From IMG/VR virus record IMGVR_UViG_3300003702_000015, positions 1 to 25,396 of that record: DNA of 25,396 nt; one strand, written 5' to 3'. The notes beneath the pieces were generated by a model, which was given only the letters and a program-made list of their open reading frames with translations, did no database searches and was not told the DNA's origin. Within the stretch, counting starts at the first letter, position 1. Each line of letters starts with the position of its first letter. A program made the translations under genes and the position numbers. Shown in pieces: positions 3,165 through 24,891 of the stretch. This DNA comes from a virus.

Positions 3165-4181
3165 ATGCATTCAATCAAACCAAGTTTACTCAAACAGGAA
3201 ATACAAGCTAACAGACAAGTTGGAATAAATACCATGATCTGGGGAGGCCCAGGTATTGGTAAGTCAGAAATTCCTTTTCAAATAGCAGAAACAAGTGGTA
3301 TTAAGTTACTTGATTTCAGAGCTAATCTGTTTGATCCCGTAGATGTTAGAGGAATTCCTTATCTTGCTAAGATGAAGGAGTCGTTAAAGCATTTTACCCG
3401 TTGGGCTGTGCCTGATGTGTTTCCTATCGTAGAAAGAGATGGAGAAGAAGGCATTTTTCTTATAGATGAATTGCCTACAGCTCCACCTGCTACGCAAAAT
3501 GCGTTTTTACAGTTATTAATCACCCGGGTAGTTGGTGATTATAAAATCCCTGATGGATGGTCAATTATTGCAGCAGGCAATCGTCTTACCGATGCAGCTG
3601 CTGTATATCAAATGCCATCACCTGTTAGGAACAGGTTAGCGCACTATGAGCTTGAAGCAGATCTGGGAGATTGGGTAGAATGGGCTGTGTCCAATGGAGT
3701 TGATACATCCCTGGTATCTTTTATTAGATATCGTCCTAATCTTCTCTTTAACTTTAACCCAGAAGACTATGCTTTTCCGACTCCTCGGAGCTGGTCCTAT
3801 GTAGATAAACGGTTGAAGTTACCCAAAGTCGATGAAGAATCTCTATTTTATGGAGTTTCAGCATTAGTTGGCGATGGTGCTGCAGGAGAGTACATAGCAT
3901 TTAGGCAAATCTATACAGAATTACCTGATATAGATCACCTAATCGATAACCCGCATACATACAAGGTAGATGACAATCCTGCCGTTATGTATGCCCTTTC
4001 GGGTGCTCTGGCAGCTCGTGCTTGTGACGAGAAGATGGAAAATATTATGAAGGTAATTAAGAAATTACCTACTGAGTTCCAGGTTATCACAGTCAAACAA
4101 TCTCTTATCAAAGACAGATCCATTATTCAACATGATGCAATTGATCAATGGGTATCTCATAACTCAACAGTAATTTTGTAG
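3165..4181 (+). CDS. MoxR-family AAA+ ATPase
   Basis: A 338-residue AAA+ ATPase. The Walker A is GGPGIGKSE (residues 27-35), the Walker B FLIDE (98-102), and a sensor-1-like stretch ending AAGNR lies near 135-140. DVRGIPY (60-66) and the QNAFLQLL helix after Walker B fit the MoxR/RavA-type helix-2-insert clade, as does the arrangement of one ATPase domain plus a C-terminal helical lid. MoxR ATPases act as chaperone-like motors that usually work on or with a VWA-domain partner. Here a metallopeptidase/VWA protein is encoded two genes downstream (4906), with one unknown protein between, in a tightly spaced operon (8-base gap, then 1-base overlap). The ATG follows AGAGGAG at 3153-3159. The ATPase assignment is firm; the substrate is unknown. 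Confidence 0.9.
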   Translation: MHSIKPSLLKQEIQANRQVGINTMIWGGPGIGKSEIPFQIAETSGIKLLDFRANLFDPVDVRGIPYLAKMKESLKHFTRWAVPDVFPIVERDGEEGIFLIDELPTAPPATQNAFLQLLITRVVGDYKIPDGWSIIAAGNRLTDAAAVYQMPSPVRNRLAHYELEADLGDWVEWAVSNGVDTSLVSFIRYRPNLLFNFNPEDYAFPTPRSWSYVDKRLKLPKVDEESLFYGVSALVGDGAAGEYIAFRQIYTELPDIDHLIDNPHTYKVDDNPAVMYALSGALAARACDEKMENIMKVIKKLPTEFQVITVKQSLIKDRSIIQHDAIDQWVSHNSTVIL

Positions 4182-4189
4182 GAGGTATT

Positions 4190-4906
4190 ATGAGTACTGT
4201 ACGAATGTCTGATTATCTCAGACAAGACATCCTAGGAGCTTTTGAAAGTTCTTATGATAAAGCTCATCCACCATTTGAAGTGGAAACAAAATATGGAGAT
4301 AAAATCTATAACATATATATAGGACCTCATGTTGAATCTCTTTTAACAGCTGCAGAAAGTGCATTCGGTAACTTGTTTGATACTAAAAAAATGTTCAAGA
4401 AATCAAGTCAACTCCAAGCTGTTGCTCCTGTTACTACATCTACAATGGTACGTGACACGTTCAATAAAACTGTTATTGAAACAACTTTAGAAGAGAACTT
4501 TAATTTTCAGATTAATTTATCTACAGAACGTCTTATTCCTATGGGTATAACCGACAATAGTCGGTATACCGAAAATATTCGGTTTCACTTTGATCGATAT
4601 AAGGATAAAAACGTTAATTATGTTTGTGAAGCTATTGAATATAACAGCAAATTAAAAGCAAAAAAGAAGCTTACTTCTAGAGAAGTAGATGACTTACTTC
4701 GAAAATTCACTACTTTAAATCAAGCAGTAAAAGCCTGGCCTGCTTTATCTAAATTAGTAACATCAGAGAAGCTTGCTAAAATTCATGAGAAACAACAACG
4801 TAAACGTAACCAAGACCTACAAAAAGAAATGGCTACTGAAATAGTTGTCGATAATGAATTGAATAAAACCATTCTTACAGGTGCTTTATTAGAGGATGAT
4901 AAATAA
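4190..4906 (+). CDS. Unknown protein between MoxR ATPase and VWA partner
   Basis: A 238-residue soluble protein starting MSTVRMSDYLRQDILGAF, after AGGAGG at 4180-4185. The middle (about 75-130) looks beta-rich; the C-terminal third is helical and Lys-rich, including the segment LLRKFTTLNQAVKAWPALSKL at about 165-185. A similar helix with a Trp-Pro pair occurs, from memory, in phage proteins of the putative nucleotide-modification-associated Nmad5 group, but this resemblance is weak and untested. The overlap of its TAA with the ATG of the next gene (TAATG) and its place inside the MoxR-VWA pair argue that it is part of the same complex or pathway, perhaps as its target or adaptor. Confidence 0.8.
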   Translation: MSTVRMSDYLRQDILGAFESSYDKAHPPFEVETKYGDKIYNIYIGPHVESLLTAAESAFGNLFDTKKMFKKSSQLQAVAPVTTSTMVRDTFNKTVIETTLEENFNFQINLSTERLIPMGITDNSRYTENIRFHFDRYKDKNVNYVCEAIEYNSKLKAKKKLTSREVDDLLRKFTTLNQAVKAWPALSKLVTSEKLAKIHEKQQRKRNQDLQKEMATEIVVDNELNKTILTGALLEDDK

Positions 4907-6033
4907 TGGATGGATTAGCTGAATTCACAAAAGCAAGGTCGCAGTTAATTCTAGTTAGTCCATTCTTTGGCACTCTAGCATTGCGATTAAAACCTATTGC
5001 AGATGAATCTATAGGCACTGCAGCAACTGATGGGGAACGTATTATATATAACCCCAAATGGTTTCTTAAATTACGTGAACATGAACGTATAGGTCTTATT
5101 GCCCATGAAGTTATGCATGTTGCTCTTATGCATATGCTTCGGAGAAATGAAAGAGATCCAATCAAATGGAACATAGCTGGAGACTATGTAATCAATGGGG
5201 CTCTAATAAAAAGTAAGTTTATATTGCCACATACAGAGCTTCTTGATTCTAAGTACGATGATATGTCAACTGACAATGTTTATGCGCTCTTACCTGATGA
5301 CATTAAAGATGGCACTGGTCCTGGAGACATTCTATTGTTGGAAGGCGATGATCCTGGAGGATGTGGTGCTGTAATTGACCATCCGTCTTTGAGTGATGGC
5401 TCTGCAAGAGGAAAATTCGAAGCGGAAATAGAAGTTGCAGTGCAACAAGCTACAGAAGCTGCTAAAGCAATGGGTAAATTACCCGGGCATTTACAGACAC
5501 TCATTGAGAAAGCGTTAGCCCCCAAAATAGATTGGAAAATGACATTAGCTCGTTTCTTACGAGCCAATAATAAGTCAGATTTTACATGGATTAAACCTAA
5601 TCGTAGATTTATATCCAGAGGACTTTATCTTCCATCTCTACACACACCATGTCTCGAGGAGATTGCTGTTGCAGTTGATACCTCAGGTTCAATTAGTGAA
5701 AAAGAATTAAAACAATTTACTGGGGAAATTACTTCTATTCTGCATGATACTAATCCAGAACGAATTCACTTCTTGCAGTGTGATACAGAGGTACGCAGAG
5801 ACAAAGAATATACTCGAGAGAATTTACCTTTAAAAGTAACGTATGAAGGTAGAGGTGGTACTAAATTTAGTCCTGTTATAAAACATATTAGTAAACACCA
5901 TCCACAAGTTTCGGCTCTTATATATCTTACTGATTTAGAGTCAAACGATTTCGGAGATAAACCACACTATCCAGTTTTATGGATAACTACATCAAGTACT
6001 GAGGCACCTTATGGTGAAGTCATACAAATTTAG
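4906..6033 (+). CDS. VWA-like metallopeptidase (DUF2201 type)
   Basis: A 375-residue protein of two parts. The N-terminal part has a zinc-peptidase motif HEVMH (67-71) followed by WNIAGDYVIN (88-97), whose Asp93 is the likely third metal ligand; this is the pattern of the putative metallopeptidase domain linked to DUF2201. The C-terminal part is a VWA-like domain with a MIDAS motif DTSGS (258-262) and a later GRGGTKF segment. Proteins of this type pair with MoxR ATPases, and one lies at 3165. No signal peptide is seen, so it should act in the cytoplasm. The last 23 bases overlap the next gene. The domain assignment is strong; whether the peptidase site is active is unknown. Confidence 0.88.
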   Translation: MDGLAEFTKARSQLILVSPFFGTLALRLKPIADESIGTAATDGERIIYNPKWFLKLREHERIGLIAHEVMHVALMHMLRRNERDPIKWNIAGDYVINGALIKSKFILPHTELLDSKYDDMSTDNVYALLPDDIKDGTGPGDILLLEGDDPGGCGAVIDHPSLSDGSARGKFEAEIEVAVQQATEAAKAMGKLPGHLQTLIEKALAPKIDWKMTLARFLRANNKSDFTWIKPNRRFISRGLYLPSLHTPCLEEIAVAVDTSGSISEKELKQFTGEITSILHDTNPERIHFLQCDTEVRRDKEYTRENLPLKVTYEGRGGTKFSPVIKHISKHHPQVSALIYLTDLESNDFGDKPHYPVLWITTSSTEAPYGEVIQI

Positions 6034-8131: not shown

Positions 8132-8542
8132 CTACGATACTGTAGCCCAAAGTTCTAATGTACCTGTAGCTACATCAGTAGCTGGGTCTACTGTACAAAG
8201 AATGTCGATGGTATTATCAGCTGTGTACGTATAAGGTGCCCTAGCAGCATCCAGCTCATCGGCTATCCCAGTTTGCCCACACGTTGAACCATCAATATAA
8301 CGATCAACATCGCCATCATCACCAACATCAAACACTAAATCAGTGCCACCATCTAGATCACTAGATAGAATTCTGATGTTATGTACCGTTTCACCGGAAA
8401 AAACATCGACCATTTGATATACGTCGCTTGTATTTACCGCTGCGGTAAGAGTAATTTTAGCGTATCTAACGCCAAGATTTCCGTCTGGAAACGGCTTAAA
8501 AGACTGATTCCCTGCTACGGGACCTGATGTAAATGTAGCCAT
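8132..8542 (-). CDS. Probable virion (decoration-like) or moron protein
   Basis: A 136-residue acidic, beta-rich protein, starting MATFTSGPVAGNQSFKPFP. It has many Thr, Ser, Asp and Gly, alternating strand patterns and no signal peptide, and ends in strands (GTLELWATVS) like small capsid decoration or fibre-tip proteins. I recall similar stand-alone proteins in tailed phages but cannot name a family. It is the only minus-strand gene between 1 and 18840 and has its own terminator (8052-8085) and a promoter candidate (8589-8616), the layout of an inserted, independently expressed unit. The start is supported by GAGG about 13 bases upstream (weak). Confidence 0.75.
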   Translation of the reverse strand: MATFTSGPVAGNQSFKPFPDGNLGVRYAKITLTAAVNTSDVYQMVDVFSGETVHNIRILSSDLDGGTDLVFDVGDDGDVDRYIDGSTCGQTGIADELDAARAPYTYTADNTIDILCTVDPATDVATGTLELWATVS

Positions 8543-8588
8543 AGTTCTATTTACCTCGTATATGAATTATTTATAATATTCTCTTTCG

Positions 8589-8616
8589 ACCATAAGGGGT
8601 TCTGTAAAGAAGTCAA
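8589..8616 (-). promoter_or_regulatory. Putative sigma-70 promoter for the 8542-8132 gene
   Basis: On the minus strand TTGACT (complement of 8611-8616) and TATGGT (complement of 8589-8594) are 16 bases apart and about 50 bases before the start codon. A plus-strand TATAAT at 8572-8577 in the same gap may serve the rightward replication genes, but no good -35 goes with it. Confidence 0.45.
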
Positions 8617-8650
8617 GCCCCCTCTGTAGGTCAATAAATAAGGAGTATTT

Positions 8651-8848
8651 ATGGCTACTTACGTCTACGTCAAAAGGAATAGGAAACATACCTATTTCTA
8701 TCCAGACGAAGATGCTCCTCATATTCAATTCAAATTAGTATCTTTAGGTACGGCTTTTAATATGGTTCACAGCAAGCAAATTGGTTGGGAACGAGCTAAA
8801 AAGGGGGATTACGAACATTGGTTAACCTTAACTAAGGAGAAAAAATGA
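8651..8848 (+). CDS. Small basic hypothetical protein, 65 residues
   Basis: It begins MATYVYVKRNRKHTYFYPDED, is rich in Lys, Tyr and His, and has a probable strand-strand-helix arrangement. The ATG follows AAGGAG at 8639-8644. It overlaps the DNA polymerase start by 4 bases (ATGA), so the two are translated together, which suggests an accessory role in replication, but no motif confirms this. Soluble. Confidence 0.75.
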   Translation: MATYVYVKRNRKHTYFYPDEDAPHIQFKLVSLGTAFNMVHSKQIGWERAKKGDYEHWLTLTKEKK

Positions 8849-10659
8849 CGTTGGATAAACTATACCTAGACTTTGAGACATTCTATGACGTTGGTTATTC
8901 CCTTACGAAAATGACCACGGCAGAGTATGTACACTCCCCAGAGTTCAAAGTATGGGGAGTAGGTGTCAAATGGAACGATGATATTGAGAGTGAATGGTAT
9001 AACTTCGAAGAAATTCCAGACTTGTTTGCACAATACAACTGGATTGAGCTGGCTGTTGTATGTCACAACACTCTTTTCGATGCCTATATTCTTACACAGA
9101 TATACCAGGTTTATCCTGAGTATTACTACGATACCGCGGCTATGAGCCGTGGGTTATATCCCAACGAATCTGCTTCATTAAAAAATGTATGTGAACGACT
9201 GTTCCCTACCGATCGGACTTTGCGTAAGGGCGAAGAACTTATCAATGCCAAAGGCATACGTGACTTGGATCCAGAGCTCGAAGTAAGTATTGCAGGTTAT
9301 TGTAGGCAAGACGTAGATTTAACTTATGCCATATTTCAAAAGATGGCAGAAGGTTATCCACAAAGCGAGTTGGATTTGATTGATATGACGGTACGGATGT
9401 TCGTTGAACCGCAATTGATCTTGGACCGTGAACTTTTAATCCAGCATAAAGAGCAAATAATTACTGAAACTGCACAAAAAATAAAAGACAGCGGTACAAC
9501 ACGTGAGATTTTAGCTTCTCAACCTAAGTTTGCGGCTCATATTGAATCCTTGGGAGTCGTTATACCAACTAAAAAGAGTCTACGCACAGGGAAGATAATT
9601 CCAGCTTTTAGTAAAAACGACTCTGCATATATACAAATGATGAGAGCTTATCCTGAACATAAACATATTTGGGAAGGACGAGAAGCTGTTAAATCACGTA
9701 TTGAAGAAACTCGAGCTGAACGATTTCTTTCTGCAGTAAATCCAGATGGTACGTTCTCTGTGCCATTACGATATTACGCAGCACATACCGGCCGTTTTGG
9801 TGGATCTGAAAAGATTAACCTACAAAACTTGCCGCGGGGATCTAAACTCCGTAGTGCATTACAGGCTAAACAAGACTATTACTTATATATAGCAGATTTA
9901 TCTAACATCGAAGCTCGAATGTTAGCTTGGTTAGCTAATGAAGAATCTTTATTAATGTCTTTTGCAGCAGGAGAGGATGTCTATAGTAAATTTGCATCTA
10001 ATATTTATAATCGTCACATAACAAAAGAGGACAAATTAGAGAGATATGTAGGAAAGACTGCCATTTTAGGTCTTGGATATGGTATGGGTAAAGACCGATA
10101 TCAAGAAACACTTAAAAATGGATCGCCTTCTATTGATGTCACCGAATCCACAGCACTTGCGATCGTTAGTCAATATCGTGCTATGTATCCAAATATACCT
10201 ATACTTTGGAATGCATGTAAACGCATGTTATATGCCATGCTTCATGTAAATCAGCACATACCCAGGTATGGGCCCTTAGAAATTGTACATACTGCTATTA
10301 AGTTACCTAATGGTATGTTTTTAAAATACCCACATCTTACATTTGTGTCCGGGGAATTTTTGTACCAATCTAGTACCAACAAAGGTCCTATACGTACTCA
10401 TGGACCAAGGCTCTGTGAAAACATTATTCAGGCTTTAGCTCGTATAGTTATCACGAATCAAATGCTTATAATAAAAAAGGAACTTCCTACGTTTAATGTT
10501 GTTTTAACTGTACACGATGAAATCATATGTTCGGGTCCCCAAAAGGACGCTGAAGTAAACTTGAATCAGATTATGGCTATAATGAAAGAGCCACCGGAAT
10601 GGTGTAAAACATTACCGTTAGATGCCGAAGGAAGCTATAGCAAAGTCTATGATAAGTAG
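8845..10659 (+). CDS. polA: Family A DNA polymerase with 3'-5' exonuclease
   Basis: A 604-residue replicative polymerase. The exonuclease domain shows DFET (residues 9-12, motif ExoI), CHNTLFDA (73-80, ExoII) and YCRQDVD (152-158, ExoIII). The polymerase domain shows motif A DLSNIEAR (351-358), motif B R400-x3-K404-x3-L408-x3-Y412 (sequence around KTAILGLGYG), and motif C VHDE (556-559). There is no 5'-3' exonuclease domain, as in T7-type phage enzymes, and it is shorter than T7 polymerase (704). The residue equivalent to E. coli Phe762 is Leu408. It begins within the stop of the gene at 8651 and is followed directly by a CsrA-like gene. It copies the phage genome together with the primase-helicase at 10877. 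Assignment is firm. Confidence 0.97.
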   Translation: MTLDKLYLDFETFYDVGYSLTKMTTAEYVHSPEFKVWGVGVKWNDDIESEWYNFEEIPDLFAQYNWIELAVVCHNTLFDAYILTQIYQVYPEYYYDTAAMSRGLYPNESASLKNVCERLFPTDRTLRKGEELINAKGIRDLDPELEVSIAGYCRQDVDLTYAIFQKMAEGYPQSELDLIDMTVRMFVEPQLILDRELLIQHKEQIITETAQKIKDSGTTREILASQPKFAAHIESLGVVIPTKKSLRTGKIIPAFSKNDSAYIQMMRAYPEHKHIWEGREAVKSRIEETRAERFLSAVNPDGTFSVPLRYYAAHTGRFGGSEKINLQNLPRGSKLRSALQAKQDYYLYIADLSNIEARMLAWLANEESLLMSFAAGEDVYSKFASNIYNRHITKEDKLERYVGKTAILGLGYGMGKDRYQETLKNGSPSIDVTESTALAIVSQYRAMYPNIPILWNACKRMLYAMLHVNQHIPRYGPLEIVHTAIKLPNGMFLKYPHLTFVSGEFLYQSSTNKGPIRTHGPRLCENIIQALARIVITNQMLIIKKELPTFNVVLTVHDEIICSGPQKDAEVNLNQIMAIMKEPPEWCKTLPLDAEGSYSKVYDK

Positions 10660-10905
10660 ATGAGTAATCTAATATTAACAAGAAAAAAACAAGAATCGGT
10701 TGTCATTCATAAGGAGATATATGAAGCCGGTTCTTTAAAATCTGAAATCTTGTGTGAAATTCTAGTAACGTCTCTTGGAACTAAACAAGTAAAATTAGCC
10801 TTCGAAGCGAAAGCTAATATAAGAATAGATCGCAGAGAAGTATATGAGAGAGACGAACGGAATAAGAGGAGTATAAATGATGGAAGTAGTTTTTCTAAAG
10901 GCTAA
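10660..10905 (+). CDS. csrA: CsrA/RsmA-family RNA-binding regulator
   Basis: An 81-residue protein whose ends match CsrA: LILTRKKQESVVI at the start (the conserved LTR and G/S-E pattern) and IRIDRREVYERDE near residues 54-66, where Arg57 or Arg58 corresponds to the essential Arg44 of E. coli CsrA (VHREEIYQR). The middle strand region is about ten residues longer than usual. CsrA dimers bind GGA-bearing mRNA leaders and alter translation; in bacteria they control biofilm, motility and curli-related genes. The gene starts directly after the polymerase stop (no own gap) and overlaps the primase-helicase by 29 bases, so it is co-expressed with replication genes. It may control phage mRNAs or titrate host regulation. 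Family call is strong; targets are unknown. Confidence 0.85.
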   Translation: MSNLILTRKKQESVVIHKEIYEAGSLKSEILCEILVTSLGTKQVKLAFEAKANIRIDRREVYERDERNKRSINDGSSFSKG

Positions 10906-13357
10906 ACAACGATTAATAAAAGAAATTTCAGTAGAAGGAAAAAAGCCTTACCCACTCGCTAAAAACTTTACGTCATCTCATCACAAATTCAATAAAACCC
11001 CAGAAGGTTTTGCCGAATTTTTCGAATTACTTAAGAGATACTCTATACAAGGTGCAGCTCTATATAAAGGGTTACTTAAAAAGAAATTAAAAAACGAGTC
11101 TCGAGCCATGATGACGGACCGAGCAGCTCAAACAGAGCTATTGGTCCTTGATTTAGATGGTATTGAATTTCCAATTTCTTCTTCCAAATCAACTCTCAGC
11201 GAGTTTGATATACAAACTATTGCTGAACAATTCGTTACTTATTTGCCTCCCGAATTTCAGGATGTAAATTATATTGCACAAGCATCTGCTTCCCTGGGAC
11301 TTAAAGGTAATAAAGTCTCAATGCATTTATTTTTCCTCCTTAAATATCCAGTATATCCAAAGGTATTAAAGGAATGGTTTAGAACTTTAAACTATGAGAT
11401 AGATTTTTTAGCAAATCAATTAACACTTTCAGCTAATGGTCAAAGCATAGCGTATCCCTTAGATGTAAGCTTAGCTGATAATTCAAAGCTAATTTATTTA
11501 GCGCCACCTAAATTTGTTGGTATACAAGATCCAATCACGGGCGAACGGTTTGTATATATCACTCGTGGTCAACCAACCGTGGACATAGTTCCATTGTTGA
11601 AGGATGTAAATCCAGAGAAAGTGCATAATTTAGGTGTACATATTAAAGATGGTTTACGAAAAAAAGCAGGACTAACTAAGAAAGCCGAGCGTATCACTAC
11701 TGTTAATGTGGGAGGTGAGGCTCAAGAAGTCTTGCAGAATCCCGACAGAATGACAATTGAGGTCTGTAGGGTAAGTGAACCTTACGTCAACTGTAATATT
11801 AACGGAGGTGACAGCGGTGCCTACTATTTTATTCTTACCAACCCTCATTATATGTACAATTTTAAAGGTGAGCCTGTATTTGAAATACAAAAAGCAGATC
11901 CAGAATTCTATAAAAGTATCTTTGATACCTTTGCAGACCAAATGGACGGAGGAAAAGAAGTCCGACCAATAATCCTTAGAGATTATTACACTGATATTTT
12001 TTATAACGGGATTTTCGATAAGGCTAAGGAACAATTTACCGATACTTTTCCTTTGACTCCTACACAAAAAGGGTCATTGGAAGGTTTTATGCGAACACAT
12101 AATCGACCTATGCCCGATTATGTTCCAGATGCTCAAGTAGTATTTGATCCTTCCTCAGGTAAAGGAATGCAAATGGAAAGAGCTCCGTATTATGTAAATC
12201 TATTTCGAAAAAGTCCTTACATGATTGCCGCGGAGCAAGATTTACCAGAAATAAAATACGGAGAATCTCAAAATTTTATAAAATATATGCCTCTTATATA
12301 TAAGCTTATTCAACAAATTCTTGGAGGAGGTGTACTAGAAACAGAACATTTTATTAATTGGCTTGCGTACATATATCAGAAAAAACAGAAAACAATGACT
12401 GCTTGGATCCTTACAGGAGTACCGGGCACTGGGAAAGGTTTGTTTGTTCATAAAGTGCTCAAGCCTCTTTTTGGAGAACAACAAGTTCCCATGCGTGCGT
12501 TAGAAAATATAGAGGAACACTTTAATCTCTATATGCGTATGGCCTTATTTCTTGTAGTTGATGAATTCCGAATGGGAGATTCTGGAAATATTGGCCGTAT
12601 GGCAGATAAATTGAAACATCAAATTACCGAGCCCTCACTTACTGTACGTGCAATGCGGGCCAACCAGGTGGAATTGCCTTCGTATTGTAATTTCTTATTT
12701 CTTACTAATAGGGCCGATGCCGTCAAAATAGAAGATGGAGACAGGCGCTACAATGTAGCTCCTCGACAGGAATATCGATTAGAAGATACATTTCCTGCCT
12801 TGCTTACACGACTGGAAGAGCTGGATAAGGAGTTGTACGTATTTTCAGGTCTGTTACAAAAATTCCAGATAGATCATCGCATGGCCCATACCGCATTAGA
12901 TAATGAAGCAAAACGAAATATGAAATTGGTTAGCATGTCAGTTCTGGAAGAATTTGCTAATGCTATTAAATCTAGCAATCTCGAGTATTTTGTTGAGATA
13001 TTGGATATCCCATTAACTAACACATTCGATGCAGGCGGTATAAGTACTGCACAACGTTACATAAAAAGCTGGATTGCTAATGTAAATGAAGAAATAATAA
13101 TACCTATGCAGCACTTTAAAGTGATGTATGATGTTTTGACAGATAGCAGAAAAGTATTATCTATTAGAGATTTTACTAAAGCTATGAACAGATTAAGTGT
13201 TGTAACTGTTCGTAAAAGAATGGGAGAAGGTGAATATCAATCAGCCCCTAGAGGGGTATTAGTAACTTGGCTTCTAGATAAAGGAGTCAAAGAATCTCTA
13301 TTAAAAATTCATTTTGACTCTAAAGACATGAGCTTAATCCAAACAATTTCTAGCTAA
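10877..13357 (+). CDS. Primase-helicase (AEP-like primase plus SF3/D5-like helicase)
   Basis: An 826-residue two-domain replication protein. The N-terminal part has LDLDG (91-95) and SMH (148-150), and PLDVS (194-198), matching the DxD, SxH and third-acidic pattern of archaeo-eukaryotic primases. The C-terminal part has Walker A GVPGTGKG (514-521), Walker B VVDE (560-563) and a following FLTNRADA sensor-like strand, as in phage D5/SF3-type helicases (DUF5906-like). It should prime and unwind DNA at the phage fork. Start: ATGATG at 10877, after GAGGAG (10866-10871); the second ATG at 10880 is equally possible. It follows the CsrA-like gene and precedes a recombination nuclease. The helicase domain is firm, the primase domain probable. 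Confidence 0.88.
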   Translation: MMEVVFLKAKQRLIKEISVEGKKPYPLAKNFTSSHHKFNKTPEGFAEFFELLKRYSIQGAALYKGLLKKKLKNESRAMMTDRAAQTELLVLDLDGIEFPISSSKSTLSEFDIQTIAEQFVTYLPPEFQDVNYIAQASASLGLKGNKVSMHLFFLLKYPVYPKVLKEWFRTLNYEIDFLANQLTLSANGQSIAYPLDVSLADNSKLIYLAPPKFVGIQDPITGERFVYITRGQPTVDIVPLLKDVNPEKVHNLGVHIKDGLRKKAGLTKKAERITTVNVGGEAQEVLQNPDRMTIEVCRVSEPYVNCNINGGDSGAYYFILTNPHYMYNFKGEPVFEIQKADPEFYKSIFDTFADQMDGGKEVRPIILRDYYTDIFYNGIFDKAKEQFTDTFPLTPTQKGSLEGFMRTHNRPMPDYVPDAQVVFDPSSGKGMQMERAPYYVNLFRKSPYMIAAEQDLPEIKYGESQNFIKYMPLIYKLIQQILGGGVLETEHFINWLAYIYQKKQKTMTAWILTGVPGTGKGLFVHKVLKPLFGEQQVPMRALENIEEHFNLYMRMALFLVVDEFRMGDSGNIGRMADKLKHQITEPSLTVRAMRANQVELPSYCNFLFLTNRADAVKIEDGDRRYNVAPRQEYRLEDTFPALLTRLEELDKELYVFSGLLQKFQIDHRMAHTALDNEAKRNMKLVSMSVLEEFANAIKSSNLEYFVEILDIPLTNTFDAGGISTAQRYIKSWIANVNEEIIIPMQHFKVMYDVLTDSRKVLSIRDFTKAMNRLSVVTVRKRMGEGEYQSAPRGVLVTWLLDKGVKESLLKIHFDSKDMSLIQTISS

Positions 13358-14185: not shown

Positions 14186-15550
14186 ATGAGATTAAATCCT
14201 CTCCCTGCGTACGCGCATCAAACTGAAACTACTTCTTTTATCCTCAACCATGCTCGTTGTCTGATTACCTCTGACCCAGGTACGGGTAAAACTCGTTCTG
14301 TGTTAGATGCTCATAATCGTCGTGAAGCAATCACATTAGTTATTGCTCCTCTTTCTATTCTTGAAGCAGCATGGGCAGATGATATTAAAAAGTTTCAACC
14401 TACCATTAATTATGGAGTTGCTTATGCAAAGAATCGTGCAGAGGTTTTTGCAGATACAAAATTAGATATGGTCATTACTAATTTTGAAGCTGTTAATTTT
14501 CTATATAAAAATCCTCAAATTCTTAAGCGATTTAATACATTAGTAGTTGATGAATTCACAGCTTTTAAAAACAAAAATTCTAAACGATCAAAAAATCTTA
14601 AACATATTGTTTCATGTTTTGATAATAGAATTTTTATGTCTGGTACTCCTAATACCAATACAATTTTAGACGTCTGGCATCCAGTTCTGTGTGTAGATGA
14701 TGGAAAACGTCTAGGAAACAGATTTTATTCTTTCAGAAATCAAGTTTGTACTCCTCGTTTTAACGGTTTTGCTAATGAATGGGTAGACAAACCAGGAATT
14801 GAACAAACTGTAGCTCAATTATTGAGCGACATTAATATTCGTCATGCTTTGGAAGACTGCATTGACCTTCCAGATAATATTACTCGTATCATGCATACGA
14901 CCCTTACTCGAGACGTGAAACGTATGTATGACACCTTGGCTGAAGAATCGGTGTTATATACGAAGCAAGGTACTATTAATGCTGTAAATGCAGGGGCTCG
15001 AGTTAAGAAATTACTTCAACTTGTAAGTGGTGCAGTCTATGACGAACTAGGAGATATTAAATATATCCACCAACATAGATACGACATGATCATAGATTTA
15101 ATCGAAGTACGTAAGCACTCTCTTGTTGCATTTAATTGGAAACATGAACGAAATGCTTTAACTCAATTAGCAAAGAAAAAAGGATTTAGCTATGAAGTTA
15201 TTGATGGAGATACTCCTCCACATAAGCGAGTAGATATTGTTGAACGTTTTCAAGCTGGTCAAATTAAGGTGTTATTTGCACATCCTCAGTCTGCAAGTCA
15301 TGGATTAACACTTACTAAAGCCACAACATGCATATGGTGTAGTCCTACATATAACGCTGAACATTTTCAGCAGTTTAATCGACGCATATATAGAGCGGGA
15401 CAAAATAAGAAAACAGAAACAATTCTTATAGCTGCTCGAAATACTTGGGAAGAAAAAGTATACGAGAAGCTAAATAGTAAGTTAGGCAAAATGGAGAATT
15501 TACTCCATGTATTAACTAAATTACATAACCAGGAGGGTTGTAATGGATAA
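14186..15550 (+). CDS. SNF2-family DNA helicase/translocase
   Basis: A 454-residue superfamily 2 ATPase. Walker A is DPGTGKT (30-36), motif II is VVDEFTAFKN with DEFT at 122-125, motif III is SGTP (152-155), and the C-terminal lobe has the motif VI sequence QFNRRIYRAGQ typical of SNF2 proteins. It lacks extra targeting domains, as do other phage SNF2 proteins that act in replication, repair or branch migration. It is preceded by a 65-base AT-rich gap with CACAGGA before the ATG. It overlaps the next gene by 8 bases. Confidence 0.93.
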   Translation: MRLNPLPAYAHQTETTSFILNHARCLITSDPGTGKTRSVLDAHNRREAITLVIAPLSILEAAWADDIKKFQPTINYGVAYAKNRAEVFADTKLDMVITNFEAVNFLYKNPQILKRFNTLVVDEFTAFKNKNSKRSKNLKHIVSCFDNRIFMSGTPNTNTILDVWHPVLCVDDGKRLGNRFYSFRNQVCTPRFNGFANEWVDKPGIEQTVAQLLSDINIRHALEDCIDLPDNITRIMHTTLTRDVKRMYDTLAEESVLYTKQGTINAVNAGARVKKLLQLVSGAVYDELGDIKYIHQHRYDMIIDLIEVRKHSLVAFNWKHERNALTQLAKKKGFSYEVIDGDTPPHKRVDIVERFQAGQIKVLFAHPQSASHGLTLTKATTCIWCSPTYNAEHFQQFNRRIYRAGQNKKTETILIAARNTWEEKVYEKLNSKLGKMENLLHVLTKLHNQEGCNG

Positions 15551-15920
15551 AGAACCTAGTTTGAATACCCTTATGGATAAACTTACAATTACACGTAAGA
15601 CAATGCAGTCTTTACAAGAGCGAGAAAAAGTATTAAGACTCCGTCGAAATGATCTCGAAAGTGCAATTATAGGAAAAATGGAAGAGCAAGGTCTTGACCA
15701 AATTGCTAATGATGTATGTACGATCTCTAAGAAATTAGAAATTGTACCTACTGTAGAAGATTGGGACATCCTGCATAAACATATACTAAATACAAAACAG
15801 TTTGAGCTGCTGCAGAAACGTATGTCTGCTACTGCTTATAGAGAGCTTTTACAAATGAACATGCCTGTTCCAGGCGTGAAAGCAACTGAACTTACTAAGA
15901 TTAATTATCGAAGTAAATAA
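15543..15920 (+). CDS. Conserved phage replication-module protein with coiled coil
   Basis: A 125-residue soluble protein. The N-terminal half (residues 10-50) is a charged coiled coil (LTITRKTMQSLQEREKVL), and the second half contains VPTVEDWDILHKHI and a late PGVKATELTKI segment. I recall this order (short strand, vPtv-DW, LLQ-R, PGv) in uncharacterised phage proteins near replication genes, but cannot name a family. AGGAGG at 15531-15536 is a strong ribosome binding site. Overlap with the SNF2 helicase and closeness to the gene at 15952 suggest a DNA-transaction role. Confidence 0.75.
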   Translation: MDKEPSLNTLMDKLTITRKTMQSLQEREKVLRLRRNDLESAIIGKMEEQGLDQIANDVCTISKKLEIVPTVEDWDILHKHILNTKQFELLQKRMSATAYRELLQMNMPVPGVKATELTKINYRSK

Positions 15921-16806: not shown

Positions 16807-16857
16807 ATTTTATGCGTACATTTTAGCTGCAGCTTAACATGTAGATGTACACACTTT

Positions 16858-16881
16858 ACCGCCCTTCGGGGCGGTTTTTTA
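16858..16881 (+). terminator. Strong Rho-independent terminator with UUCG loop
   Basis: ACCGCCC (16858-16864) and GGGCGGT (16869-16875) form a perfect 7-bp stem around a TTCG tetraloop, followed by a T-run. It ends the replication transcript. Downstream, TTTGACC at about 16896-16902 may be part of a new promoter, but no good -10 is visible. Confidence 0.95.
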
Positions 16882-16937
16882 TATTTTTAGAGAAATTTGA
16901 CCTTCATAGAAGCGTTCTAAGCCACGATCTCAGGTCA

Positions 16938-16957
16938 GGTAAGGGTAAGGGTAGGGG
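16938..16957 (+). promoter_or_regulatory. G-run array before a start codon (possible G-quadruplex)
   Basis: Four G-runs at 16938-16939, 16943-16945, 16949-16951 and 16954-16957 are separated by TAA, TAA and TA: near-perfect repeats of GGTAAG. The array ends 9 bases before the ATG at 16967 and takes the place of a normal Shine-Dalgarno box. It could fold as a two-layer G-quadruplex in RNA and control translation, or simply be a purine-rich binding site. Confidence 0.45.
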
Positions 16958-16966
16958 TAAGAAACT

Positions 16967-17218
16967 ATGAAAAAACAAATTGAACTAACTATAGAAGAGA
17001 ACATTCCTGTTCCTCCTCCAGGAGGAGAGTTTCGTGGCAGTAAGTATGTAGATGTTCTTTCGAAAATGAAGGTGGGGAATTCTGTTGTCCTCTTTAATCA
17101 AAAGGATGTAAATAATCTTAAAGCTTTGATTCGTTCCAGGGGATTACGTCCTGTACAGAGAAAATTAAAAGATGGAACAATCAGAGTATGGATGATGGAT
17201 TTGAAGGCGGAAGACTGA
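16967..17218 (+). CDS. Small hypothetical protein, 83 residues
   Basis: A soluble basic protein starting MKKQIELTIEENIPVPPPGG. The YVDVLSKMKVGNSVVLFNQKD segment (residues 27-47) resembles small phage domains with a K/D-x-MKVGDS-type turn, and the C-terminal half (LIRSRGLRPVQRKLKDGTIRVW) is basic, with a probable helix then strands. This could be a small nucleic-acid-binding protein related to phage DUF7303-like proteins, but the call is from memory and tentative. It is preceded by the G-run array, not a usual ribosome binding site, and begins a new unit after the terminator. Confidence 0.75.
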   Translation: MKKQIELTIEENIPVPPPGGEFRGSKYVDVLSKMKVGNSVVLFNQKDVNNLKALIRSRGLRPVQRKLKDGTIRVWMMDLKAED

Positions 17219-19279: not shown

Positions 19280-21046
19280 TTATCCTGCAACTGAATATAC
19301 GCTCAAAGATTCAGATTTCCCTTTAACCATAATATCTTTAATATAGGCTACTGCTATTTTTGATGCTTTTGCTGTACTTTCTCCGATCAAAATATCTACT
19401 CCCACTTCTTTAGTAGCACTTTCGTAACGTGCTGCTTCATTAACGGAATTACCAATAGCACTGAAATCGAAGCGTGTAGCTGAACCCATGTTACCAATAA
19501 CTGCAGGCCCTGTGTTCAATCCTACACCAATTGCCACATCAACTGGCAATGTATTGTTTAACTGTTTTATCTCTTTTTGTATCTCAATTGCACATTCGAC
19601 AGCTCTAGTTTCATGGTCCTCTAAGTCAAGGGGGGCATTGAAAATTGCCATACAAGCATCTCCAATAAACTTATCCACCATCCCCCCATACTTTTGAACC
19701 GCGGTCACCTGAACTGACAATGTAGCATTCATTATTTCTGTTACTTCTTGAGGACTGAGCTTCTCAGACATCGAGGTAAAGCCACGTAAATCCGTAAATA
19801 AATACGTACACGTACGTGTTTCACCCCCCAGGTGAAGTAAGGTAGGGTCTTCTTGCAATCGTTTTACTTGCTTAGGATCCAAATAATGTTCAAATTGTTC
19901 TTTAATTTGCTGGCGTAGAAGCGATTGTTCTCTAAAATTGAGCCAGAACTGCTCCCCCATCACTATTAATAAGGCAATTGAACTGTATGTGGTATCAATC
20001 AGAAGGGATTGTTTTACTACAAAGTACCACTCTAGCCCTCCTACCAGTACACACAACCCTGCAGAGCTCGCTGCCATGTACGCATACGTACATTTCCGCC
20101 CGAGCACGAGACCCAATGTACAGACAAGGAGCAGAATAAGCAGCTCATAGGTTAATCGATCAGCAGGAATCTGAGGACTGTCAGACAGGAGCAAGCTTTC
20201 TGCCAGAGCTGCCTGAATATGATGAGGGTTTAATAGACCGTGAGGCGTGGCTATTTGAGGCATAACCCCAGCTGCTGTAACTCCCACAAAGACAAACTTA
20301 CCTGCTACCTGGGGGTTCTCCAATGTAGTTATAGGAGTATCAATCCAAGAAACCCACTTACGACCGTACGTATCTGTAGCTATGGGCCCTAAAGCTGGAA
20401 TACGTATTGCCTGGATCCCACTTTTGTAAGTCTTTATTTGATATGTTCCTTCTCCAGTAAGCGCCTTCAATACCTGCATAGCAAAAGAAGCTACCCAACC
20501 TTCAGGTGTTTTCATGACCAAAGGAATCCGTCTGACTAAGTTATCCACATCGGGACGAACTGAGACCATACCTTGTAAAGCCGCTTGTTCAAGTTGGCTT
20601 ACATTTGCCAAGGAGCCCGTTAGTGTAATTGTATGTATAGGGTTATCCCCGAGGACTACGGTTCCATCTGTTGAAGGATAAATCCTATTCTCATATTCAG
20701 GTATTGCCAGTACATTAGTGCCCTGGGCAAGACTTGTAGCAAACAAATCATCTCCCCCAAAACGATCGGCCTGAGGAAACATGATGACCCAACCCACGCC
20801 CAACGCTCCACGGTCGATTAAGTTGTTCTGGATAGAAGCTAACGTGTGCCTAGGAAAAGGCCATCCACCTTCTCGTTCTATATCTTCTTCAGTAATATCA
20901 AGAATGACAAAAGGACCACTCGGGGTCTGTTCAGGTATAAGAGCATCAAAAGTCTTTAATCTAAGTACTTCTAAAGCACTCCACTCGAGAACCAGGGGAA
21001 TAGTTAGAAGAAAAATAGTTACTATACCAATAAGCCATTTATTCAT
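19280..21046 (-). CDS. CHASE2-domain adenylate/guanylate cyclase (membrane)
   Basis: A 588-residue class III nucleotide cyclase. An N-terminal membrane segment (about 4-21) leads to a periplasmic CHASE2 domain (about 30-290, with FVILDITEEDI and GGWPFPR), then three membrane segments (about 300-365), a linker helix (372-400) and the catalytic domain. Metal residues Asp419 (FTDLRGF) and Asp463 (FIGDA), substrate Lys459, Ser529 at the base-selecting position, Asn536 and Arg540 (VNEAAR) are present, so it should be active. The Ser fits adenylate rather than guanylate cyclases, but this is not proof. Its CHASE2 domain would sense an extracytoplasmic signal, and it overlaps the curlin-repeat gene upstream by four bases (ATGA). 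CHASE2 cyclases often neighbour FecR proteins in bacterial genomes, as here. A phage cyclase is uncommon. Confidence 0.93.
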   Translation of the reverse strand: MNKWLIGIVTIFLLTIPLVLEWSALEVLRLKTFDALIPEQTPSGPFVILDITEEDIEREGGWPFPRHTLASIQNNLIDRGALGVGWVIMFPQADRFGGDDLFATSLAQGTNVLAIPEYENRIYPSTDGTVVLGDNPIHTITLTGSLANVSQLEQAALQGMVSVRPDVDNLVRRIPLVMKTPEGWVASFAMQVLKALTGEGTYQIKTYKSGIQAIRIPALGPIATDTYGRKWVSWIDTPITTLENPQVAGKFVFVGVTAAGVMPQIATPHGLLNPHHIQAALAESLLLSDSPQIPADRLTYELLILLLVCTLGLVLGRKCTYAYMAASSAGLCVLVGGLEWYFVVKQSLLIDTTYSSIALLIVMGEQFWLNFREQSLLRQQIKEQFEHYLDPKQVKRLQEDPTLLHLGGETRTCTYLFTDLRGFTSMSEKLSPQEVTEIMNATLSVQVTAVQKYGGMVDKFIGDACMAIFNAPLDLEDHETRAVECAIEIQKEIKQLNNTLPVDVAIGVGLNTGPAVIGNMGSATRFDFSAIGNSVNEAARYESATKEVGVDILIGESTAKASKIAVAYIKDIMVKGKSESLSVYSVAG

Positions 21047-21837
21047 TGCTGTGTAATAGAAATTATTTTATTGCAGTTGCTTACGCAATTAAAAATAGCA
21101 CTGTATGATTTATTGGATGCGCCTTTTTGTACTACCGTCACATCATAGTCATCAGTATAGAACTTCATATTCGAAGTATGAGCTCCATTACCTTGTTGCG
21201 TTAAAGTAAGATCACCATCATCCGCATACCAAAAAATATCTGCATCCTTATTGCCAGAACCTTTTTGAATTAACCGAGTGAAATTGTTATCTGCTCCTCC
21301 AGAGTTATAGACATACGCATTATGATTTCCACTCCCCTCTTGTGTAATCCAAATATCTGAATTATCAGCAAAAGAGAGTATTTTTGCATACATATCACTT
21401 CCCGTTTGTTCTATCTTGTACTCATTATTATCTCCTGAACCAAGTATCCAGGCGTCATTATCATTTCCTATCTGTTCAATAATAGATTCATTATCGTCCT
21501 CATCCATATCAATAACGGCATAGTTATCATTTCCCTCAATATTGATAACCCAGCTTTGTCCATCATGATTTGACCAGACAGATTGAGAATAAGCGGCATT
21601 GGATATCCCATCAATTGTTGTAGAAATTGTGGCACCATCACAGGTATGTGTACCAGCTAGTGAATTATCAAAACTACCTAAACCACAATACACACCTGTA
21701 ATATTTCCACTTCCTACTTGTTGAACAGTAATACTAGTTCCAGTACCTTGAGTCTGTATGGTAATGGTATTGTTATCACCATAAACATAAAAACTAAGGA
21801 GACTGGTAAATAGCAATAGTATTATCACCTGCACCAT
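21043..21837 (-). CDS. Curlin-repeat secreted fibre protein (CsgA/CsgB-like)
   Basis: A 264-residue secreted protein with a signal peptide (about 1-20, MVQVIILLLFTSLLSFYVYG, then DNN). The rest is built of curlin-like units: at least eight Q-x-G steps such as VQQVGSGN, IEQIGNDN, ITQEGSGN, LIQKGSGN and LTQQGNGA, each followed by an Asn and alternating strands. It is Asn, Asp and Ser rich. This is the amyloid subunit design of CsgA/CsgB, though longer than E. coli CsgA. A Cys pair near the end (NCVSNCNK) could form a disulfide. It starts inside the FecR gene; GGAGGT lies about 10 bases before its ATG. It should leave the cell through CsgG and form or nucleate fibres. Confidence 0.82.
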   Translation of the reverse strand: MVQVIILLLFTSLLSFYVYGDNNTITIQTQGTGTSITVQQVGSGNITGVYCGLGSFDNSLAGTHTCDGATISTTIDGISNAAYSQSVWSNHDGQSWVINIEGNDNYAVIDMDEDDNESIIEQIGNDNDAWILGSGDNNEYKIEQTGSDMYAKILSFADNSDIWITQEGSGNHNAYVYNSGGADNNFTRLIQKGSGNKDADIFWYADDGDLTLTQQGNGAHTSNMKFYTDDYDVTVVQKGASNKSYSAIFNCVSNCNKIISITQQ

Positions 21838-22879
21838 TGACCTCGACCTCCATAATCATTCCACCTGAATTAATACTTACATAAGTAGAAGCATCTCGTT
21901 CTAATCCAATATCAAAAGTATTAATCCCCTGGTGGACTAAGAAAACGTGTGCCCCGTCTACAAAAGAATACGTTTGGTAAACAGGATCATAGCCCGGTAT
22001 AAGTCCTCGTAATTCTACTCCTTGTAAGTTACCTCCAGAAGTTTCTTTCTTCTGAGCACCTATTTCTACAATAGCTAAAAGATCAACAAGGAAATCAAAG
22101 TTTAATAAATCAATATCTAACCGATTAATTTCCTCCTCTTCTTCTAGAAAATCCTTATCCAGGTCAGGAGCATCTTCAAAAAAATCTCTATCTAAATCTG
22201 TAGAGGTACTTCCTTCTTGTTCTGCTAGAGCTTCTTGAATTTCAGGGGGTCTATTTACAATTAACATGTTGTCAATTAACCCTAAAGTTAAGTTAAGAAC
22301 AACTCCTCGAGTAGGTTTCGATTCGAAAGTAGAAACCATAGTGGCTTGGAAGGGTTGATTTAGTACTTCTGTACCAGCCCATGTCGTTACTGTGATCTCT
22401 CCAGACGCATTTCCACTTGCATCGGGGAGCAGGATCACCAGTGAACGACCAAGCTCATCGACAGTGGTAGTAAAATCTGTACCGCGGATTGCGATCGTAG
22501 CACTGGGCGTACGTATTGATATGTTTTCTTTATTGATTTTACCTAGAGCACCTGTAATGAATCGAGCTGTACCACTCACCATATTTAAGGCTAACTGAGA
22601 TTTATTAGGGTCAGGATCAAAGATGTAGTTATCAATAACTACTTTAGAATGCTCTGTAAGTTTCAGAATAGAAGAATCCAAAAACTCAATAGCCATACGT
22701 CCGTTGCCAGTACGGACGTCGTCATAAGAAAGTATATCTAAGGAAAGCTCTGCAAGGATTTTATCCTTGTTACTTTCCCTTATAACTTCTCCATTTCCAC
22801 GAAACTCGGATATCGTTCCAATTTCAGCTGCATTAATACTGATCCAAGTCCATGAAAGAATCAGCAACCAGAAGCGCAT
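21794..22879 (-). CDS. FecR-domain protein with curlin-like C-terminus
   Basis: A 361-residue exported protein: signal peptide (about 1-17), then a FecR domain with ALNMVSGTARFITGAL (97-112) and RTPSATIAIRGTDFTT (123-138), the core of PF04773. A long acidic linker follows (about 220-260, with ribs of Asp/Glu). The C-terminal 65 residues contain curlin-like steps, HQGINTFDIGLE and VNGAGDNTIAIYQS. In TonB-linked FecR proteins the domain is a periplasmic sensor/anchor; in many bacteria FecR proteins lie beside CHASE2 cyclases, as here. The curlin-like end suggests that the protein joins or seeds the fibre. It overlaps the neighbouring curlin-repeat genes (44 and 19 bases), hence shared translation. 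Domain call strong; role inferred. Confidence 0.85.
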   Translation of the reverse strand: MRFWLLILSWTWISINAAEIGTISEFRGNGEVIRESNKDKILAELSLDILSYDDVRTGNGRMAIEFLDSSILKLTEHSKVVIDNYIFDPDPNKSQLALNMVSGTARFITGALGKINKENISIRTPSATIAIRGTDFTTTVDELGRSLVILLPDASGNASGEITVTTWAGTEVLNQPFQATMVSTFESKPTRGVVLNLTLGLIDNMLIVNRPPEIQEALAEQEGSTSTDLDRDFFEDAPDLDKDFLEEEEEINRLDIDLLNFDFLVDLLAIVEIGAQKKETSGGNLQGVELRGLIPGYDPVYQTYSFVDGAHVFLVHQGINTFDIGLERDASTYVSINSGGMIMEVEVNGAGDNTIAIYQSP

Positions 22880-23547
22880 TGGTCGATATCTATAGTTCCA
22901 TTGGATGTAGCAGCAGTAAGATTAAATACATTAGTACTGGCTGTATCTGTTTGATCTACATCCACGTTATTACTGTTGCCTGTTAATGAAACAATAATCT
23001 CGTGGTCATTGGCTCCAGACTGTACAGTATCTATGTCATTTGAGTTTCCAGAAATGGCCCACTCATTCTTACACCCAATAACATTACACTTGGCATTGAT
23101 GTTATTAGACGTTCCAGTTACAACCAGATCCTGATTCCCTGCTGTGCCAGTGGCTGAATCACCCTGGGTAAAAATAAGGACATTAGAATCACCAGTTGCT
23201 TGGAAATCAAAATCCGAACCTGCTACATCTCCAGTTGCTCCAACTGCCAATGTAGCCACGTTGCTATCTCCAGTTGCTTTGTACGTCCAACTGGTGGAAT
23301 TACCTTGGCTAATACTAGCGGCTAATACGTTTGTATCACCTAGCTGATCAATATCGACAGTCATCCCAGTTCCGCTTAACGAAACCCTTGCTTGAGAAGT
23401 ACCAACTACGTTAGATGCTCCTATCTGATCTATTGTTAATGTGAGACCAGTACCTGTTTGGGTAATATAAATATCATTATCCGCACCAAACACGCTGATT
23501 GAAAAAATACATCCAAAGACACTACTGAGTACCTTTATCAGTTTCAT
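22861..23547 (-). CDS. Curlin-like repeat secreted protein
   Basis: A 228-residue exported protein with a signal peptide (about 1-21, ending SVFG before ADN). It carries degenerate curlin units: ITQTGTGL, IDQIGASN, IDQLGDTN, then TGDSN steps twice, TGTSN, SGNSN and TGNSN, alternating with short strands. It is Asp, Ser, Thr and Asn rich, with few aromatics, as in beta-solenoid or amyloid subunits. Cys pairs (CNVIGC, CASGC at the very end) may form disulfides. It lies between csgG and the FecR gene, overlapping both (26 and 19 bases). It is likely a major or minor subunit of the same fibre as the protein at 21043. Confidence 0.8.
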   Translation of the reverse strand: MKLIKVLSSVFGCIFSISVFGADNDIYITQTGTGLTLTIDQIGASNVVGTSQARVSLSGTGMTVDIDQLGDTNVLAASISQGNSTSWTYKATGDSNVATLAVGATGDVAGSDFDFQATGDSNVLIFTQGDSATGTAGNQDLVVTGTSNNINAKCNVIGCKNEWAISGNSNDIDTVQSGANDHEIIVSLTGNSNNVDVDQTDTASTNVFNLTAATSNGTIDIDQCASGC

Positions 23548-24376
23548 TTTTGTCCTCCACTGGGGCTAATGTAGTATAGTCAAAATCCCAAACTCGAGCT
23601 TCTAACCCTTCCATAACTAGCCCATATACCGCTGCCTCTATTGCAGCCCTTACTGCATAGCCTACAGGCTCATTTTGTGTCTTTCCAGATTCTATTTCCA
23701 CGAGCTCAGTTCCCATCTCAAAAAATCGAAATAAATCTGAACCTAGACCTGTAGATAGAATAGTTTTTGTAGTTGTTACATTAAGTAACACTTCCCCTGT
23801 TTGCACGAGTACTGCACGTAAGGTGACAGTCACTATATCTTCTCGATATTGGTTCTTGAGACCAATTCCAAAATATCTGGCTCCAGATCCCCCCGTTCGA
23901 ATATTGCTATCGTACGCTACAATTCCGCCTTCCAATACCAGGCCCGCGTAGAGTAACGGCTTTAAGGTATTTTCTTTCTCTCCATCATAGGTCTTGCGTG
24001 TATTTACAATGAGCTGACGTTCTCTACTTAGATGATCCAAGCCCGATCGTTCTACAACAACAAACCAACTTCCACGGCCCGCATCTCGTAAGGCTTCAAT
24101 TAATATCTCAAGTCCGCCTTGGGTAACTGCTGTGCTAAAGCTGGCGATATTCTCTTTAGGTTTTCGTTGTCCCGTAAGATCAGGAAACTCGTAAACTGCA
24201 ACAACAGCTTTTTTGTTAGGAAGAGGGAGATTTAGAAGTTGATGAGCAGAACTAGGAACAATCCTGGGACCTTCTGGGCAAATAAAAATACTTATACAGT
24301 TTTTTTGATTCTGGAAAGCAAGCTTAGCGCAGCCCCCCATAAAAAGGATGAGCAATCCTAATATTAAAAATCGCAT
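23522..24376 (-). CDS. csgG: CsgG, curli outer-membrane secretion channel
   Basis: A 284-residue lipoprotein closely matching CsgG: signal peptide with lipobox MGGC (Cys16), VYEFPDLTGQRKP (61-73), FSTAVTQGG (80-88), the ER-x-GL core and the GGSGARYFGIG segment (about 162-172) at the start of the beta-barrel hairpins, then KTILS and a C-terminal helix. CsgG forms a nine-fold pore in the outer membrane that exports unfolded curlin subunits. Against E. coli CsgG (Y51, N55, F56 at the pore constriction) the loop here has one extra residue, with Phe80 kept but Tyr51 and Asn55 replaced. Its ATG overlaps the csgF stop (TAATG). Assignment is firm. Confidence 0.95.
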   Translation of the reverse strand: MRFLILGLLILFMGGCAKLAFQNQKNCISIFICPEGPRIVPSSAHQLLNLPLPNKKAVVAVYEFPDLTGQRKPKENIASFSTAVTQGGLEILIEALRDAGRGSWFVVVERSGLDHLSRERQLIVNTRKTYDGEKENTLKPLLYAGLVLEGGIVAYDSNIRTGGSGARYFGIGLKNQYREDIVTVTLRAVLVQTGEVLLNVTTTKTILSTGLGSDLFRFFEMGTELVEIESGKTQNEPVGYAVRAAIEAAVYGLVMEGLEARVWDFDYTTLAPVEDKNETDKGTQ

Positions 24377-24891
24377 TATCCACTCTCGCTACCACAATCT
24401 ACCCAACAACCCCCAAAACTACCAATAGGTATACTAATCTCTGTAGTTGAAACAATAACCCCATCAAACTGTTCTTCAATAATAAGCGTAATAGTAGTCC
24501 CATCATTTATCCACTTTAGTATATTTCCCTCTAGGTTTATTTCTCCAGCTATAGGGTTTCCTGAGGTAGGAATACCAGAATAATTAAATAACGACTCACT
24601 AATATCTTTGGCAAGGGTAGAATAAATACGCGATTCCAAATTTCGAATAAATTTAGCAAGAACAGTATTTTTTGCTTCACGTTCTACTTCGTCTAAAGTC
24701 TCCTGGATACTTTCTGCCCTCTTATCTGAACGCGTACGCTCTTGTTCGTCGATTGTTAAGTAGTGTGCGGATTGATTAATTCCACTAAAACTAGGATTAC
24801 CAAATCTGTGTACGAGCTCATCAGCAAAAACGTTCTGTGCTAGAGCAAGAACAAGGACTCCGACCCCTGTCTTAATCCTTTCTTTGGTCAT
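24376..24891 (-). CDS. csgF: CsgF, curli assembly factor
   Basis: A 171-residue exported protein: signal peptide (about 1-23, ending VFA before DEL) and the CsgF signature FGNPSFSG (residues 30-37) at the mature N-terminus. In E. coli CsgF this region (FRNPNFGG) plugs into the CsgG pore and forms a second constriction. The middle is helical and charged, the C-terminus strand-rich and ends in two Cys (CWVDCGSESG). In bacteria CsgF links CsgG to the nucleator CsgB at the cell surface. Immediate placement before csgG with a one-base overlap supports the call. A CsgE gene, which usually accompanies these, is not found in the window. Confidence 0.88.
   Translation of the reverse strand: MTKERIKTGVGVLVLALAQNVFADELVHRFGNPSFSGINQSAHYLTIDEQERTRSDKRAESIQETLDEVEREAKNTVLAKFIRNLESRIYSTLAKDISESLFNYSGIPTSGNPIAGEINLEGNILKWINDGTTITLIIEEQFDGVIVSTTEISIPIGSFGGCWVDCGSESG

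Follow-up and report, generated by a model that had tools for sequence, protein, structure and literature searches.

The open reading frame at 10660–10905 (+) lies between two replication genes of an uncultured phage and resembles csrA, which raises the question of whether its product is a CsrA protein and, if so, whether it controls the mRNAs of the host or those of the phage itself. The window, the whole stretch of DNA that was analysed (25,396 nt), is one linear IMG/VR record. A phage CsrA as such is known and not new; phage-encoded CsrA/RsmA has already been reported, and the roles proposed so far for the genes on record concern host defences or physiology (PMC7366521; PMC8450108). The literature searched contained no phage-encoded CsrA that is shown or predicted to control the mRNAs of its own virus.

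The product of 10660–10905 was confirmed as a CsrA homologue. The reading frame runs from ATG to TAA and specifies 81 aa, with MSNLILTR at the N-terminus and IRIDRREVYER inside. The protein matched the Pfam CsrA family PF02599 with 40 bits (E 3.8e-10) in two stretches with an insertion between them, which places it above the gathering cut-off of 27 bits and thus within CsrA/RsmA by profile. It also matched PHROG 9500 ('CsrA-like regulator', 8.9e-9), and a profile built from 44 relatives reached PDB CsrA chains at 1.4e-9. The match is far above chance: wherever the locus is intact in the lineage, a relative occupies the corresponding position. An AlphaFold monomer model had a mean pLDDT of 89.6, and all 13 of its 13 best PDB matches in Foldseek were CsrA, RsmA or RsmE chains, with a TM-score to the target of up to 0.89 and an rmsd of 1.8 Å. 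The model has the CsrA fold of five strands and a C-terminal helix, strands 1 and 5 being unassigned by DSSP in the monomer. When 44 phage proteins were aligned, L6, R8, R58 and E60 were invariant and T7 nearly so; the RNA-contact residues of strands 1 and 5 are thus present, and L4 is also invariant or near-invariant across the family. Arg58 of the window protein is the equivalent of Arg44 in E. coli. The earlier note had recognized CsrA from the LILTR start and from IRIDRREVYER with its essential Arg, and profile, fold and Arg58 all agree with it; the extra residues that it had seen in the middle of the protein are real and were placed in the β2–β3 turn.

The protein shares the common fold, the LILTR strand, the Arg44 equivalent and its phage encoding with other members of the CsrA/RsmA family (PF02599), of which Vibrio phage 219E41.1, Pseudomonas phages and Vibrio phage J26 carry examples, but differs from them in several respects. 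The β2–β3 turn is longer, by about 4–6 residues in the whole phage family and by about 5–8 more in the window and one relative (L003), while the β3–β4 turn is two residues shorter. The 67 distinct phage proteins have two extra N-terminal residues and a KQVKLAFEA-type strand. These features were compared against the CsrA proteins of E. coli, B. subtilis and P. aeruginosa, which lack them. All aligned phage proteins have an invariant Asp (D57, in the motif IDR; window 10825–10839, codons 56–60) at the position of His43 in E. coli, the neighbour of the RNA-binding Arg44, and this substitution may shift specificity. The gene is also distinguished by the fixed place that it has in this uncultured lineage, with polA on one side and primase on the other, and by hairpins on the SDs of the phage itself. 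A C-terminal tail of 15 aa, the part that overlaps the primase gene, is not shared, most relatives ending before the primase start. RsmF/RsmN of Pseudomonas aeruginosa (4k59, 4kji), a CsrA relative, gave a longer match to the family profile than standard CsrA did, but a distant one (E 0.004). RsmN has a rearranged fold with an inserted helix, and this arrangement was absent from the model of the phage protein. Decoy sRNAs of the Csr/Rsm type (CsrB/RsmZ) were sought in the window and none was found at E<=1, nor did Rfam return anything convincing there.

The gene for the family A DNA polymerase (polA, 8845–10659, +) ends at the nucleotide before the csrA start, so that there is no gap, and csrA overlaps by 29 nt the primase-helicase gene (10877–13357, +; phrog_24712; DUF5906), which starts within csrA and has its own SD, AAGAGGAG. 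The run is opened by the gene for a conserved 65-aa protein (8651–8848, +), the end of which overlaps the polA start by 4 nt. The coordinates thus bear out both the zero gap and the overlap described in the earlier note, and its view that CsrA is embedded among replication genes holds across the lineage, in which the operon position is conserved. The csrA start lies <=4 nt from the polA stop in 47 of 68 distinct contexts, most commonly in the form TAATG, and csrA is usually without an SD of its own, a GGA being found in the SD region of only 28% of csrA leaders. This junction has the anatomy of termination-reinitiation, and ribosomes probably reinitiate at csrA, because its start is fused to or abuts the polA stop and has no SD. 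In the window there is likewise a 4-nt overlap of the 8651 gene with polA, and the overlaps suggest that translation of 8651, polA and csrA is coupled, beginning at the ribosome binding site of the 8651 gene.

Carriers of the polA-csrA-primase arrangement form a group of uncultured, mostly marine phages in IMG/VR. Direct searching found 46 csrA relatives and the family alignment added 55 further contigs; wherever the region was intact in the lineage, csrA followed polA and immediately preceded the primase gene (67 distinct proteins). Among 179 primase loci surveyed, some contigs being counted more than once, those without csrA were five cut at a contig edge and eight distant relatives at about 28–33% identity, which include KPP25, whose gene tables for the region list no CsrA, and Aeromonas phage phiA008. 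No near relative of the lineage was present among 50,697 sequenced phages; the csrA search of these yielded weak matches to two fecal contigs only, and the best primase match was about 31% or less over most of its length. In two distant prophages, of Vreelandella (L173, 4394–4642) and P. fluorescens (L174, 4814–5038), a related primase follows csrA at a distance of about 5 kb, and a polymerase gene stands between them. A 60.8-kb contig (L172, PBPT01000002.1) with the phage gene order, csrA and CsgG is binned in a Neomarinimicrobiota MAG, which may be a binning error or a hint of the host.

To ask whether the sequences on either side of an SD-region GGA pair with each other better than flanks exchanged between leaders, a flank-swap test was applied to leaders less than 80% alike within each gene family; base composition and flank conservation are preserved by this procedure. 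In the csrA-positive lineage 9 of 24 leader families gave p<0.05 and five gave p<0.005, namely those of the 8651 gene (z 5.7), the 370 gene (z 4.0), primase (z 3.8), the 15543 gene (z 2.8) and the 18453 family (z 2.8). The test is calibrated on internal coding GGAs: at 76 such sites the mean z was −0.03 (sd 0.95, maximum 2.0), with one site at p<0.05 and none at p<0.005. None of the 12 families of SIO1-like marine phages, which are without csrA, passed; HTVC010P-like sequences were too uniform and gave only two families, and the Vibrio LP.1 scan covered four relatives only. The flank swap was preferred to plain shuffling because the AAA and p4190 families, GGA-loop enriched by shuffling, vanished under it. 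The double GGA at the primase start (AGGAG...AUGGA) was set aside as main evidence for an operator, being mostly the SD plus a conserved Glu2 (exceptions L093, L103, L166 and L172). The earlier note had proposed a scan of phage leaders for ANGGA hairpins; a plain scan of the window alone gave nothing above chance, and an excess exists at the level of the lineage, where SD sites were compared.

The same excess was apparent when sites were pooled and hairpins counted that present GGA in a loop of 4–6 nt on a strong stem, start sites being called mechanically. The lineage had 72 SD-GGA hairpins at 636 sites, dereplicated yet not fully independent, against 19.6 expected by flank swap (ratio 3.7, binomial p 8e-21), and six near-complete relatives had 40 against 11. 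There was no significant excess in the same genomes at upstream GGAs (12 against 16.2), coding GGAs (9 against 8.1) or GGA-less SD regions (17 against 13.6). Controls without csrA gave 7 against 11.1 (SIO1-like), 3 against 2.9 (HTVC010P-like) and 13 against 10.3 (a mixed group of 13 phage and prophage loci including KPP25, phiA008, T4 and LP.1-like), those on CsrA-positive hosts being few and contained within the 240 sites of the mixed group. Other csrA-positive phages had no hairpins at 66 sites against 1.7 expected, and T4 scanned with annotated starts had no SD-GGA hairpins. What appears to be new here is this lineage-specific excess: on sequence evidence the phage's own genes are far richer in CsrA-type hairpins than chance or other phages, in a design that sets one csrA-positive lineage against others, so that another trait of the lineage, host CsrA included, could be the cause.

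The excess was strongest at loops of 4 and 5 nt (19 and 34 observed, 5.3 expected for each), with 16 against 8.0 at 6 nt and 15 against 9.0 at 7 nt; larger loops showed none except for a small surplus at 9 nt. CsrA ligands obtained by SELEX have mostly 6-nt loops on short stems (PMC7652899), and by this comparison the loop sizes of the lineage appear close to those reported. The primary SELEX consensus ACARGGA was not enriched at lineage SDs; an A at −2 was present in only 48 of the 114 hairpin sites, a share no higher than across all sites. Near-identical copies of CACAC-(A)AGGAG-GTGTG precede several genes with unlike products in four genomes (G016 26662–28655, G024 38344, G026 37610–38311 and G029 26689–27936).

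The clearest of the predicted CsrA-type operators lies at 8634–8652 (+) and covers the start of the 8651 gene, the first of the run with polA, csrA and primase. In the sequence AUAAAUA-AGGAG-UAUUUAU the GGA of the SD is placed in a 5-nt loop and the stem extends into the start codon of the 8651 gene. The leaders of relatives form hairpins at the same place from different letters (GUU-AGGAG-AAC, AAUUA-AGGAG-UAAUU, AGUC-UAGGAG-GACU and AAAAUUA-UGGA-UGAUUUU), and some retain the GGA in a weakened SD (AGGAC, UGGAU). Across 30 distinct leaders the stem covaries with a score of 0.315, against 0.140 (sd 0.028) when shuffled, a value reached in none of 500 shuffles; a control with slid partners gave at most 0.148. 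A second predicted operator, AUAACC-AGGAG-GGUUGU, is found at 15525–15541 (+) over the SD of the 15543 gene (15543–15920, +; phrog_13900, labelled minor head protein), which has SD-GGA hairpins above swap expectation across the lineage. Both hairpins, at 8651 and at 15543, are modest in the window itself, where the folded regions do not exceed shuffles in stability.

The intergenic region upstream of the first operator is divergent (8132–8651), with a minus-strand virion-protein-like gene at 8132–8542 opposed to the 8651 gene. Some relatives have a further hairpin in the 8651 leader, GCATTY-AGGAW-RAATGT, with AGGAU or AGGAA in the loop about 20–24 nt before the SD GGA, and CsrA might have a second site here. 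The upstream palindrome has no GGA in its loop in most clades, however, and it overlaps a promoter-like sequence of the minus strand; four relatives (L060, L072, L039 and L048) keep it over a TTGACA promoter-like site on that strand.

Protein production of the phage itself is thus the probable object of control, instead of, or in addition to, that of the host, and it is likely that the phage CsrA is the phage's own translational regulator, a RegA-like repressor with autoregulation. CsrA would be made together with the DNA polymerase through reinitiation at the polA stop, would bind the GGA that small hairpins present in their loops at the SDs of several phage genes, and would, once bound, block the ribosome and repress translation. 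The 8651 gene would be among the targets; it opens the polA-csrA-primase run, and therefore repression there should reach the polymerase and csrA by translational coupling, which would constitute autoregulation. We infer RNA binding, repression, coupling and timing from the sequences, and for binding to GGA loops the hairpin excess gives indirect support. The wider proposal, that CsrA here is a genome-wide translational regulator of the phage, which would have evolved GGA-loop hairpins over its own ribosome binding sites, the autoregulatory one included, and that a host-type regulator has taken the role of RegA, is favoured with a little more reserve.

RegA represses about 30 T4 mRNAs from a gene that lies between genes 62 and 43, and all T4-like phages keep this gene in their replication cluster (PMC3014915). 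The likeness, one of function and not of homology, lies in a small regulator gene that every member has at a set place among its replication genes and in operators, here predicted, on several phage mRNAs, many phage ribosome binding sites being expected as targets. The folds are unrelated, and RegA recognizes unstructured, A+U-rich sites located at the AUG, whereas the sites predicted here present GGA in hairpin loops at the SD. E. coli glgC and the autoregulation of E. coli csrA offer a similar case, with translational inhibition through a GGA site that lies over the SD in a hairpin (PMC7652899), but the phage case is drawn from comparative genomics only, and repression would extend to csrA because it is coupled to the genes before it. 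If true, this would be a second, independent solution to the problem that T4 solves with RegA, with operators readable from sequence, and would supply a concrete list of RNA sites for the long-open question of the purpose of CsrA in phages.

It is unlikely that the phage CsrA mainly manipulates the host, by adding to or mimicking host CsrA and repressing host mRNAs (CRISPR-cas, biofilm, storage). Such a role has been proposed from the repression of cas mRNAs by RsmA and from the co-occurrence of phage and host CsrA (PMC8450108; PMC7366521), and E. coli-like csrA genes were found in 85 of 50,697 phage records, the few such phages that were tested being without hairpins of their own. In the present lineage, however, the gene belongs invariably to the replication cluster and is not optional cargo, the protein is divergent and matching hairpins stand on the phage's own SDs. 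A second, host-directed role may exist alongside regulation of the phage's own genes and would be compatible with the evidence.

The SD hairpins might instead be operators for another protein, host CsrA or the phage polymerase, the phage CsrA having a different target, which is considered quite improbable. The T4 polymerase gp43 controls its own synthesis by binding an RNA hairpin close to its ribosome binding site (PMC3014915), the best operator here is just upstream of a gene fused to polA, and the phage's host may carry CsrA, which could be the ligand of the hairpins. Like hairpins at many unlinked genes, however, fit a protein with a short, general recognition site, and the loop sizes suit CsrA. 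That the hairpins have no protein ligand and reflect a structural habit of an AT-rich lineage keeping its SD exposed in a loop is highly improbable: many stems are A+T only and there is a mild general hairpin excess 30 nt upstream (51 against 34.6), but GGA-less SD regions and other GGAs are without significant excess, the AT-rich HTVC010P-like phages and T4 show none, and the swap controls preserve base composition.

Regulation by phage CsrA of the curli-like genes, a link that the earlier note had thought possible, was not borne out and was rejected on CsgG co-occurrence and on the curli-side leaders. csrA was present in all 40 records tested and CsgG in 12 of them; four contigs of 56.6–58.9 kb have csrA and are without CsgG, and no SD-GGA hairpin was found on the curli-side genes of the window. 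These genes form a minus-strand arm (19280–24891, −) that encodes CsgF, CsgG, two curlin-repeat proteins, one of which falls narrowly short of the Pfam cut-off, together with a FecR-domain protein and a CHASE2-guanylate cyclase. The curlin-repeat proteins look unusual on a phage, because published phage csgGF loci (pelagimyophages, Melnitz) are without csgA/csgB (PMC9004378).

Two other features of the window were recorded. The early region at 3165–6033 contains a conserved AAA ATPase gene and a DUF2201 metallopeptidase/VWA gene. At 16857–16960 a terminator-like hairpin (ACCGCCCTTCGGGGCGGTTTTTT) is followed by the G-rich repeat GGTAAGGGTAAGGGTAGGGGTAAG, which could form a G-quadruplex, before the gene at 16967.
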